Below, in pieces: positions 5,950-33,390 of a stretch of 33,390 bases of DNA. Numbering within the stretch: position 1 is the first letter of the stretch; each line of letters begins with the position of its first letter. The position numbers and the translations under genes are program-made. The DNA is taken from positions 1 to 33,390 of the forward strand of contig JAHCBA010000054.1 of NCBI GenBank assembly GCA_019634625.1, written 5' to 3'. The notes below the pieces were generated by a model. The model saw nothing but the letters and a program-made list of their open reading frames with translations, was not told the origin of the DNA and ran no database searches. The DNA comes from Verrucomicrobiia bacterium (GTDB lineage Bacteria > Verrucomicrobiota > Verrucomicrobiia > Limisphaerales > CAIMTB01).

Positions 5950-5950
5950 T

Positions 5951-5985
5951 CTCCACTCTCCACTCTCCACTCTCCACTCCCCACT
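5951..5985. repeat. Heptanucleotide microsatellite (CTCCACT)n
   Basis: Four perfect CTCCACT units (5951-5978) followed by one imperfect unit, CCCCACT (5979-5985), starting one base after the stop codon of the HlyD-type gene. A similar CTCCACTCTCCAC string recurs downstream of the AIM24 gene near 33160, again just after a stop codon. Confidence 0.85.
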
Positions 5986-5989
5986 CACC

Positions 5990-6019
5990 AGCCCCAGCCC
6001 CAGCCCCAGCCCCAGCCCC
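5990..6019. repeat. Hexanucleotide microsatellite (AGCCCC)5
   Basis: Five perfect AGCCCC units, 30 bp, immediately after the CTCCACT microsatellite. Non-coding position. Likely prone to slipped-strand length variation. Confidence 0.85.
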
Positions 6020-11437: not shown

Positions 11438-13093
11438 ATGATCCGTCGAAGCCGGCTGCCGTTCGCCTTCGTGCTCGCCCTGCTCCTTGGCGTGGCGGGT
11501 TTCCTGGCCTTCCATCATGGGCAAGGCAGACTCCAACTGGCCTCGGCACTCTCGGAACTGCAGAGCCGTGGCGTGACCTTCGAGGTCGATCCGACGCCGC
11601 CCGCACCTTCGCCCGCCTCCGACACGGCCCTCCCCGATCTCCTGACCGCAGCCGAGTCGTTGGGTGCCACCCGCCTGCAGGTTCCCATGGTACCGTCCAT
11701 CGCCCCGGGCCGCATCGTGCCGGCCACGCGGGTGGAGCGTTGGGGTCATCCCGGAAGTCAGACCCATTCCTGGGAGGATATCGCCCGATGGGCGCAGACC
11801 CACGCCGGGGCCCTCCAATCGCTCCGTGACACCCTCAACGCCCCTCGCCGTCCGTCCGTCGAGGATCCCCTCGACCCTGGGCCCAAGCTCCTGACCAGAC
11901 TGTCCGCCTCCAAGAGCGCGGCTCTCGCCCTGGGAATGGCCTCCCTGGAGGCGGCTCGTCGAGGAGACTTCGAGACCGCCGTCTCGGATCTCGAATCCAT
12001 GGCCCGAATCGAACGGGACCTCGCCGATGCGCCCTTCCTTATCGCCCAACTGGTCCACCTCTCGGTGGCCGGTACCGCCGCCAGCCGGGCCGCCTCCGTG
12101 CTGCACGCCGGGGATTGGACCGAGCCGCAACTCGCCCGGCTCCAGGCGGCGCTTCCCTCCTCCGATGCGCCCGAGGGCGCCCTCCTGGGCCTGCACGGGG
12201 ATGCCACTTCCATGGTCCGTGCCCTGCACCGCCTGCGCCAATGGAACCCCGGTGAACCCTCGCCCTACGCCGCGTTGGACTTCGGTACCCGGACCCACAC
12301 CCTCCACCTCGATGGCAACACCGAGCCTCCGCGCGAACCCACCCTGTTCCAGCGGGCCGTGGGACGCCTGGTGCTGGGTTCGGTCCGGATGGCCGACCGT
12401 ATCCGTCGCATCGGCTGGCACGATCAAGCCTTCGCGCGTTTCCTCCTGGACCTGGAACCGGTCATCCTGTCCCGACAGGAAATCCTCAGGGAAGGCTCGG
12501 CGAATCGCCTCAAGGAATGGACCGCCGACCGTTCGACCGACGCCCCCGCCGCCCCATGGCGCCGTTTCTATTCCGCGCATGTCCTCCCCGGATTCGTCGA
12601 GTCGCTCGACAAGACCGTCGCGAAAGTCCTGCAGGCACAAACCCAACGCTCCCTCCTGGAAACCCGCATCGCCCTGGAACGGTTCGACCGCCGCCATGCC
12701 CGTCTCCCCGACACCCTCGCGGAACTCGTACCGGACTTCCTCGCATCCGTGCCGATCGACAGAATGGATGGTCAACCCATCCGGTACCGCCGGGACACAG
12801 GTTCCGGATTCACCCTTTGGAGCGTCGGCGAGAATGGCATCGACCACGGAGGCGACGCGACCTGGGATGATCCGAACCCCGGAACCCGCCAATGGTGGCT
12901 CGCCCGCGATGGCGTCTGGCCTGAACCCGCCGACGAGAATGCAATGGCCGACTGGCATCGCGCCGAGGCCGAGCGTCGGACCAGGGCCCGTGTCCCGTTC
13001 CAGATGGACGAGGAAACCATGCGCCGCTACGGCCTGCGGGCTCCCGACGGGACCCCCGCTCCGGAATCCCCGGTCCCTACGCCCACCCAGTGA
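11438..13093 (+). CDS. Exported/membrane-anchored protein of unknown function
   Basis: 551 residues. MIRRSRLPFAFVLALLLGVAGFLAFHHG is an N-terminal signal anchor. The body is mostly helical with no motif I can assign. Near the C-terminus, LPDTLAELVPDFLASVPIDRMDGQPIRYRR and FTLWSVGENGIDHGGD (~residues 425-475) match a pattern recurring in Planctomycetota/Verrucomicrobiota exported proteins ('YP.tL.eLvP.yl..vP.DP..G.plrYr...gf.lYSvG.dg.DdGG'), often associated with type II secretion pseudopilin-like proteins. This supports an envelope location, not a specific activity. The gene is monocistronic, and eight bases after its stop the 145-bp tandem array begins. Confidence 0.75.
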   Translation: MIRRSRLPFAFVLALLLGVAGFLAFHHGQGRLQLASALSELQSRGVTFEVDPTPPAPSPASDTALPDLLTAAESLGATRLQVPMVPSIAPGRIVPATRVERWGHPGSQTHSWEDIARWAQTHAGALQSLRDTLNAPRRPSVEDPLDPGPKLLTRLSASKSAALALGMASLEAARRGDFETAVSDLESMARIERDLADAPFLIAQLVHLSVAGTAASRAASVLHAGDWTEPQLARLQAALPSSDAPEGALLGLHGDATSMVRALHRLRQWNPGEPSPYAALDFGTRTHTLHLDGNTEPPREPTLFQRAVGRLVLGSVRMADRIRRIGWHDQAFARFLLDLEPVILSRQEILREGSANRLKEWTADRSTDAPAAPWRRFYSAHVLPGFVESLDKTVAKVLQAQTQRSLLETRIALERFDRRHARLPDTLAELVPDFLASVPIDRMDGQPIRYRRDTGSGFTLWSVGENGIDHGGDATWDDPNPGTRQWWLARDGVWPEPADENAMADWHRAEAERRTRARVPFQMDEETMRRYGLRAPDGTPAPESPVPTPTQ

Positions 13094-13100
13094 TCCGGAT

Positions 13101-13816
13101 CGGCCTGTTCAGCCAATCCCCGGGAATGCACCCACCCACCCTCGCCCACCAATGACCGCGTTCCGTTCCCACACCGGCACCCTCCTTCCCATCGCCCTAA
13201 TCTCCGTGCATATGCACGCCGTTTACGCTCATTTCCCTCTCGCCCCGGCCTGCTCAGCCAATCCCCGGGAATGCACCCACCCACCCTCGCCCACCACTGA
13301 CCGCGTTCCGTTCCCACACCGGCACCCTCCTTCCCATCGCCCCAATCTCCGTGCATATGCACGGCGTTTGCGCTCATTTCCCTCTCGCCCCGGCCTGCTC
13401 AGCCAATCCCCGGGAATGCACCCACCCACCCTCGCCCACCACTGACCGCTTTCCGTTCCCACACCGGCACCCTCCATCCCATCGCCCCAATCTCCGTGCA
13501 TATGCACGCTGTTTACGCTCATTTCCCTCTCGCCCCGGCCTGCTCGGCCAATCCCCGGGAACGCACCCACCCACCCTCGCCCACCACTGACCGCTTTCCG
13601 TTCCCACACCGGCACCCTCCATCCCATCGCCCTAATCTCCGTGCATATGCACGCCGTTTACGCTCATTTTCCTCTCGCCCCGGCCTGCTCAGCCAATCCC
13701 CGGGAATGCACCCACCCACCCTCGCCGCCCCACCGACCGCGTTCCTTTCCCACACCGGCACCCTCCATCCCATCGCCCCAATCTCCGTGCATATGCACGG
13801 CGTTTACGGTCATTTG
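13101..13816. repeat. 145-bp tandem repeat array, five units, with a palindromic core
   Basis: Units begin CGGCCTG(C/T)TC at 13101, 13246, 13391, 13536 and 13681; the period is exactly 145 bp, with one extra base in the last unit, and similarity fades after about 13816. Units differ by only a few substitutions. Each holds the 12-bp palindrome GTGCATATGCAC at 13206, 13351, 13496, 13641 and 13787; in units 2 and 5 it extends to the 16-bp perfect palindrome CCGTGCATATGCACGG. Because 145 is not a multiple of three, the array cannot encode an in-frame repeat protein; the Pro/His-rich ORFs crossing it are artefacts. It fills nearly the whole gap between two convergent genes (stops at 13093 and 13848). 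The same core occurs at 21149 and 33239. Confidence 0.95.
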
Positions 13817-13847: not shown

Positions 13848-14924
13848 TCAATCCGCCAACCACTTGTCCCGCTGCGCCGCCACAAAGGCGTCATCGGGCA
13901 GTTCCGGGTACAGCCTTCGAATCCGTTCGATCTCCTCCGCCTGCCCCGCAGACAGCGTCTCCTTCGGATCGAGGCAGCGCGTGCCCGCCATCAGTCCCTG
14001 CCCCGACAGCACCTGATGAATCCCCGCAATGCACCCGGCATACCCGTTCGCGGCATCGAACAGCGCGGCATTCGCCTCGGTGACGCGCGCCGACAACCTC
14101 AACAGGTCCGCCGGCACCGCCCCCGCCTGCCTCGCCTCCCTGCACGCCCGCCAGAACGCCACCGCCTGCCGCGTCCAGCAGGCCCAGTGCCCCAGCAACC
14201 CTCCCGCAAACGCCAATCGCACCCGGCCTGCATCCGTCCCGATCTCGTACCCGGTCAACAGGTCCGCCCCGATGGTGTCGTCGTTGCCGGTGTACAAGGC
14301 GATCTCCCCCGCCCGACCCGATTCCGCAACGGCCCGCAACACGTCCAGCGTCCGGTACCGATCGAAGGGCGCGACCTTGATGGCGACGACCTTCGCAATG
14401 GCCACGAACCGGCGCCAGAACGACAACGTCAGGACCCTCCCCCCCACCGAGGGCTGCAGGTAGAAACCGAATACCGGAATCGCCTCGGCCACCTCCTCGG
14501 CGTGCCGGATCAACGCATCGTCATCCGCGTCCCGCCAGGCCGAGAATGACACCAATCCGGCGTCATACCCCAACCGGCTCGCCAGCGTCGCCTCCCGCAC
14601 GGCCTGCTCGGTCCGTCCGCAGATTCCCGCCACCCGCACGGTCCGTGTGCCGGCCGCCCGGTCACAGGCGGACACCGTCTCAGCCGCCAGTTCCAGAACC
14701 GGCTCCAGCAACCCGTGCTCCGCGTCGCGAATGGCGAACTGCGTCGTGTGAACGCCCACCGCCACCCCGCCCGCCCCCGCCGCATGATAGTACCGCGTCA
14801 GCGCCCGCTGGTGTCGCACATCGAACCGCCCTTCCCCGGTCAGTGCCAGCGGATGCGCGGGGATGACCATTCCCTCCAGCAACCGCTGACGCGTCTCCTC
14901 CACGCTGCTGACCGCGGCGTTCAT
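13848..14924 (-). CDS. Dihydrodipicolinate synthase / N-acetylneuraminate lyase family aldolase
   Basis: 358-residue class I Schiff-base aldolase/lyase of the DapA/NAL TIM-barrel superfamily. Catalytic residues are visible: Y155 in PVFGFYLQP and the Schiff-base lysine K183 in VVAIKVAPFDR, 28 residues apart exactly as Y133 and K161 in E. coli DapA. The substrate-carboxylate loop reads GVHTTQF (T60/T61) instead of GTTGE. It is longer than true DapA (~292 residues) with an extended C-terminus, and it is not in a lysine operon, so it is more likely a sugar-acid or 2-keto-acid aldolase or dehydratase than a lysine enzyme. It starts 3 bp after the stop of an SDR gene, so the two are surely co-transcribed and may act on one pathway. 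Confidence 0.87.
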   Translation of the reverse strand: MNAAVSSVEETRQRLLEGMVIPAHPLALTGEGRFDVRHQRALTRYYHAAGAGGVAVGVHTTQFAIRDAEHGLLEPVLELAAETVSACDRAAGTRTVRVAGICGRTEQAVREATLASRLGYDAGLVSFSAWRDADDDALIRHAEEVAEAIPVFGFYLQPSVGGRVLTLSFWRRFVAIAKVVAIKVAPFDRYRTLDVLRAVAESGRAGEIALYTGNDDTIGADLLTGYEIGTDAGRVRLAFAGGLLGHWACWTRQAVAFWRACREARQAGAVPADLLRLSARVTEANAALFDAANGYAGCIAGIHQVLSGQGLMAGTRCLDPKETLSAGQAEEIERIRRLYPELPDDAFVAAQRDKWLAD

Positions 14925-21042: not shown

Positions 21043-21140
21043 TGCATTCCTGCGCCCGGACGTGAATTTGTGCTCGTCAACCGGTTCCTGCCCCCCAGGG
21101 ACGGCGCCGGACCTTCCCGCCATCCGCCTGAAAATAGCCT

Positions 21141-21168
21141 GAAACTTCGTGCATATGCATGAAGTTTC
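21141..21168. repeat. 28-bp near-perfect palindrome sharing the array core
   Basis: The left arm GAAACTTCGTGCAT (21141-21154) and right arm ATGCATGAAGTTTC (21155-21168) are inverse complements except for one position, where a G faces a T. The centre GTGCATATGCAT differs by one base from the core of the 145-bp array. As RNA it would give a 12-bp stem, including one G-U pair, with an AUAU loop. It lies in the divergent upstream region between the LamG-like and FG-GAP genes. Confidence 0.9.
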
Positions 21169-21233
21169 GGTCCTATTGCGGCCCCGGTCTCGACCCCTCC
21201 CTCCCGGCACGGCAACCTCCGCCCGCCGTTCCC

Positions 21234-33170: not shown

Positions 33171-33390
33171 ACGTCTCCCCGCCCCGCGCCTCGACTCCAC
33201 CTCCCACTTACCCCCTCCTCCAAATCCACTCAAACTTCGTGCATATGCACGATAATTCAGTCCTTTTCGCCGGCCCCGTTCCGTTTCCCGCCCGCACCCG
33301 GTGCCAATCTCGCTCCCTCGCCCAATCCGCACGTCTCCCCGCCCCCCGCCTCTTCTCCACCCCCACCTTCCCCCCTCCTCCAAATCCACT
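33171..33390. repeat. Start of a second palindrome-bearing tandem array (160-bp period)
   Basis: The 60-bp block beginning ACGTCTCCCC (33171-33230, ending CAAATCCACT) recurs at 33331-33390 with a period of exactly 160 bp, ending again in CAAATCCACT at the last base of the window. Between them lies CAAACTTCGTGCATATGCAC (33231-33250), with the same 12-bp palindrome as the 145-bp array at 33239-33250. The second unit is cut by the window edge; one expects another CAAACTTCGTGCATATGCAC just beyond. The array lies 3' of the AIM24 gene. Confidence 0.85.

Follow-up and report, generated by a model that had tools for sequence, protein, structure and literature searches.

A species-private family of 46-bp extragenic palindromes as the probable source of a tandem array between convergent genes in a Verrucomicrobiia bacterium

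Introduction

Short extragenic palindromes of the REP type carry an unpaired GTAG or CGTC end tag (PMC3733652; PMC6006769), and their length is given as 20-40 bp (PMC3733652). GTAG REPs often lie beside Y1 transposase genes, whereas CGTC ones do not (PMC3733652; PMC6006769). CGTC-tagged repeats and the dRS3/RS arrays (NIMEs) are intergenic palindromes with spacers of 30-160 bp and no linked transposase gene (PMC3733652; PMC3898611). Here we describe a 46-bp palindromic element from a Verrucomicrobiia bacterium (GCA_019634625.1) that resembles REP, REPIN and BIME sequences in being a short extragenic palindrome of many copies, species- or lineage-specific, situated near gene ends and sometimes clustered (PMC3733652; PMC6006769). 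In contrast to REP/RAYT systems, however, the element exceeds 20-40 bp, is symmetric and paired from end to end and lacks an unpaired tag of the GTAG or CGTC type (its CGTC-like letters sit inside the paired arms), and no Y1 transposase gene lies beside any copy examined; it also differs from REPs in combining a fixed centre with variable arms. Because it has neither the unpaired tag nor a linked Y1 gene we do not call it a REP proper, and on these comparisons it may be described as a variant form of extragenic palindromic repeat.

In layout, the arrays formed by the element come closest to the neisserial dRS3/RS arrays (PMC3898611), yet dRS3 is a 20-bp sequence, ATTCCC(N8)GGGAAT, in which the ends are fixed and the centre varies, opposite to the pattern of the element (PMC3898611), and neisserial spacers are RS families whereas those of the element arrays are mostly locus-specific. 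Like MITEs the element is a small, non-coding, dispersed inverted repeat; unlike them it has no interior and no target duplication. Among the best 100 of 226 half-site matches listed, those followed up all belong to palindromes, and none represents an autonomous copy of the MITE type with the element's ends.

Results

The tandem array and the element within it

The window, by which we mean the whole stretch of 33,390 bp that was analysed (contig JAHCBA010000054.1), holds a tandem array (Table 1) for which TRF gave a period of 145, 4.9 copies and 95% matches. An earlier note on this DNA had described five 145-bp units, a palindrome identical in all of them that widens to a perfect 16 bp in two, and an array nearly filling the gap between two convergent genes. 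All of this was borne out: the core GTGCATATGCAC is the same in 5/5 units, spaced at 145, 145, 145 and 146 bp, units 2 and 5 carry it as part of the perfect 16-mer CCGTGCATATGCACGG, and the array takes up 715 of the about 755 bp between the stop codons at 13093 (+) and 13848 (-). The inventory of the note was right for the five array cores and missed a sixth perfect core as well as a copy with one mismatch (Table 1), so that seven cores with at most one mismatch were observed in the window against 0.01 in shuffles.

Table 1. Positions of the array, the palindromic elements and the adjoining genes in the window.
Feature	Position	Strand	Remarks
Upstream convergent gene	11438..13093	+	551 aa, no known family
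Tandem array, five 145-bp units	13101..13815	.	each unit a spacer then one 46-bp palindromic element; TRF and spacing
Element 1	13189..13234	.	core 13206-13217
Element 2	13334..13379	.	core 13351-13362, perfect 16-mer
Element 3	13479..13524	.	core 13496-13507
Element 4	13624..13669	.	core 13641-13652
Element 5	13770..13815	.	core 13787-13798, perfect 16-mer
Downstream convergent gene	13848..14924	-	358 aa, DHDPS family
Single element	21132..21177	.	core GTGCATATGCAT (one mismatch, at 21149); gap between divergent genes
Element in second array	33222..33267	.	perfect core at 33239; array cut by contig end

At its right end (33173-33390) the window shows an assembly break within this second array, whose units measure about 160 bp and which is also found, in opposite orientation, at the end of another contig (C55, locus L120). 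Elsewhere in the window, TRF detected adjoining short tandem repeats of TCTCCAC and CCAGCC between two genes (5950-6019).

The earlier note had taken the 12-16 bp palindrome as the conserved part of the unit. It is indeed the recurring part, but alignment of 40 copies shows the recurring object to be a 46-bp palindrome, AAATnGnCGnAAACnnC-GTGCATATGCAC-GnnGTTTnCGnCnATTT, of which the 12-mer is only the centre. The element divides into two 23-bp half-sites and is nearly invariant over its 12-bp centre. The half-site logo, AA(T)nGnC-nn-AA(A)CttC-GTGCAT, amounts to AAnnnnC twice with a 9-bp period followed by GTGCAT, and little information lies outside the 46 bp. In four sampled copies all 23 pairs are perfect, and across the family the arms co-vary: shuffles gave 45.4 +- 4.9 double changes where 72 were observed, and sliding the pairing gave far fewer.

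Conservation had also been read as a sign of function. The invariance of the core within the window array is not significant by itself, because the spacers barely differ either (9/396 positions), and only about 1.4 changes would be expected over the 60 core positions. Taking arrays together, 2.3% of positions differ in the core, 4.5% in the spacers and 6.6% in the arms, so that the core is marginally more conserved than the spacers (p = 0.046 when true spacers are compared); at this p value core conservation was dropped as a proof of function. Of the family-wide core changes, 24/41 fall on the two central positions, which could form the loop of a hairpin or a lax spot in a protein site.

Copies and arrays across the genome

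The core does not occur at chance frequency in the genome, in agreement with the earlier note: there are 77 perfect copies, compared with 0 for the reversed control. A covariance model gave 224 strand matches, equal to about 113 element sites, totals that are lower bounds as elements were counted in fetched loci. They comprise dispersed single elements and tandem arrays; the latter number more than 20 and have units of 84-163 bp that differ between loci. In 37/61 loci the flanks are common to no other locus, while one group of 18 loci has common spacer or flank sequence that is partly another dispersed repeat. Near-identical 46-mers lie within unrelated flanks (L040/L113 and L050/L117), and the 46-mer itself is thus the dispersed unit. 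A further dispersed repeat of ~90-165 bp, with 82-92% identity between loci, adjoins some elements (L020, L036, L047 and L114; L042 and L113; L045, L051 and L120).

An element lies within 300 bp of about 17 of the 176 contig ends, where our chance estimate is about one, and matching array ends pair contigs C54-C55 (the right end of the window), C11-C39, C20-C28 and C8-C19. Judging from these contig ends, contigs break at arrays, so that the true arrays probably exceed their assembled length.

Position relative to genes

With gene positions taken from a home-made codon-usage gene caller, the elements are intergenic and, where a gene 3' end adjoins, lie at a median of 39 bp from the stop codon, which upholds the position at gene ends put forward in the earlier note. 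In co-directional gaps they sit on average at 0.26 of the gap, counted from the upstream stop (KS p about 1e-5), and at six loci (L040, L044, L050, L054, L117 and L123) the stop codon, read from the sequence, falls inside the element or at its edge. Eleven elements appeared to lie inside genes; the five examined were over-extended frames or overlapped only a gene end, and the remainder look like start-codon artefacts. Cytosine makes up 41% of the sense strand beside elements and 35% at gene ends that have none, and a Rho-related effect of this C-rich flank is conceivable.

Occurrence in other genomes

The element family is private to one bacterial species. Within the genus no element was found in four congeners by either 12-mer or covariance model, and in the order a single core was present in 18 of 319 other genomes and in none of the rest. 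The congeners, at about 60% protein identity, are too diverged to offer an empty site. Among about 85,000 species, a collection that may lack entries for the window's own species, the extended pattern occurred at 12 places, one per contig and in unrelated phyla, which is near chance expectation (our own estimate is about 4). Viral contigs, again a collection that may leave out records of this species, contained no element, a plasmid collection gave no match, an Rfam search returned nothing credible, and the 12-mer is absent from the relevant literature.

Discussion

Our data suggest that the array probably arose when a single REP-like extragenic palindrome, a member of a family private to the species, was amplified locally in tandem. 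The single-locus readings offered in the earlier note, namely an operator array, a segregation site or a terminator serving two genes, do not fit because the motif is scattered over dozens of gene ends that are unrelated to one another and occurs in one species only. We infer that the element spread as a mobile unit. The self-complementary 46 bp could have been acted on by an enzyme as a single-strand hairpin or cruciform, the location at gene ends would have been retained because insertion elsewhere is harmful, and arrays may have arisen by slippage or unequal crossing-over that copied some 40-115 bp of flank along with the palindrome. Against this explanation stand the regular AAnnnnC motifs, two per half-site, which would also suit a protein-binding site, as well as the lack of a target-site duplication (direct repeats of 2-9 bp are at the shuffled level) and of a mobilising enzyme linked to any element in the Y1 loci of the genome that were examined. 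The 20 fetched Y1 loci, with flanks of up to 1.5 kb, contain no element, a test limited by the draft assembly, and a RAYT link was accordingly set aside.

A 326-aa Y1 transposase has nevertheless expanded species-specifically, with 67 matches of which about 16 are full length at 90-97% identity, and its relatives in congeners are only about 40% identical. The parallel expansion of transposase and palindrome in the same species is no more than suggestive of a link. The Y1 gene, represented by the Y1_Tnp loci L095-L112 (for example 1456-2436 of L110), has no fewer than 16 full-length copies and, mostly at contig ends, dozens of partial ones. Similarity between copies runs from start codon to stop codon, beyond which the flanks bear no relation to one another, and it is apparently only the ORF that has multiplied. 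We would only tentatively entertain the idea, which we consider rather doubtful, that the palindrome is of a kind not described before: fully self-complementary over 46 bp, fixed at the centre and co-varying in the arms, prone to seeding tandem arrays where it lands, and dispersed within one species by some enzyme that is not a repeat-flanked RAYT, perhaps the ORF-bounded Y1 transposase.

That the element might instead be the binding site of a dimer or larger assembly of a DNA-binding protein, for instance a nucleoid or segregation factor, with arrays acting as high-occupancy clusters, is suggested by the fixed positions at 9-bp spacing in both half-sites and by the slight excess of core over spacer conservation. 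Co-variation of the arms is not expected if each half were selected alone, the arms are more variable than the spacers inside arrays, and the position at gene 3' ends together with the absence from relatives fits a dispersed repeat better; we regard such a site as unlikely. An RNA hairpin at transcript 3' ends, whether a terminator, a Rho-linked end or an mRNA stabiliser, would agree with the short distance to stop codons, with the concentration of core changes on what would be two loop positions, with the somewhat C-rich sense-strand flank and with the strong predicted folds of perfect copies (-36 to -39 kcal/mol). However, the window's own copies are predicted to fold weakly (-8 to -14 kcal/mol), a terminator does not need one fixed 12-mer, and the hallmark of an intrinsic terminator, a GC-rich stem then a T-run, is not seen, as T-runs are absent from the sense strand after the stem. 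Moreover, sense-strand mismatches show no G-U excess (33 G-U against 48 A-C) and so give no sign of selection on an RNA hairpin, and the terminator or stabiliser role once proposed for the array is, in our judgement, improbable.

That the arrays are artefacts of assembly would be in keeping with a draft of 88 contigs in which elements lie at so many contig ends. Substitutions distinguish the units, though, the more than 20 array loci have different spacers, many arrays are inside long contigs, and breaks at arrays suggest longer real arrays and not invented ones; we consider an artefact highly improbable.

The species-private palindrome family from which, in our preferred reading, the array was amplified has a counterpart elsewhere in the genus. 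Congener G003 possesses a palindrome of its own, GCCCCGGAGGGGCG, with 95 matches, nearly absent from the other genomes tested. Like the window family it is species-private and has a member beside the DHDPS gene, in this case 3' of the orthologue (L206); unlike it, most of the palindromes form inverted pairs spaced by about 85 bp, and their sequence is unrelated. Private palindrome families at gene ends thus arose more than once in the genus. In a further genome, G006 (L209), several inverted repeats, for example GGAACAGGCCACTGGCCTGTTCC, directly follow the stop codon of the DHDPS orthologue, and the one used for a search matches only two places in that genome. Our de novo palindrome scan covered about 650 kb of congener DNA, too little to exclude other families.

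For the genome itself, the element arrays account for part of the breaks in the draft assembly. For the genus, the presence in two congeners of unrelated private palindrome families beside the same DHDPS gene implies independent origins. The copies of the family, more than 100 in number, have decayed to different degrees, and some are amplified in tandem while others are not; they provide material for testing how such repeats spread and are also suited to testing how palindromes seed tandem arrays.
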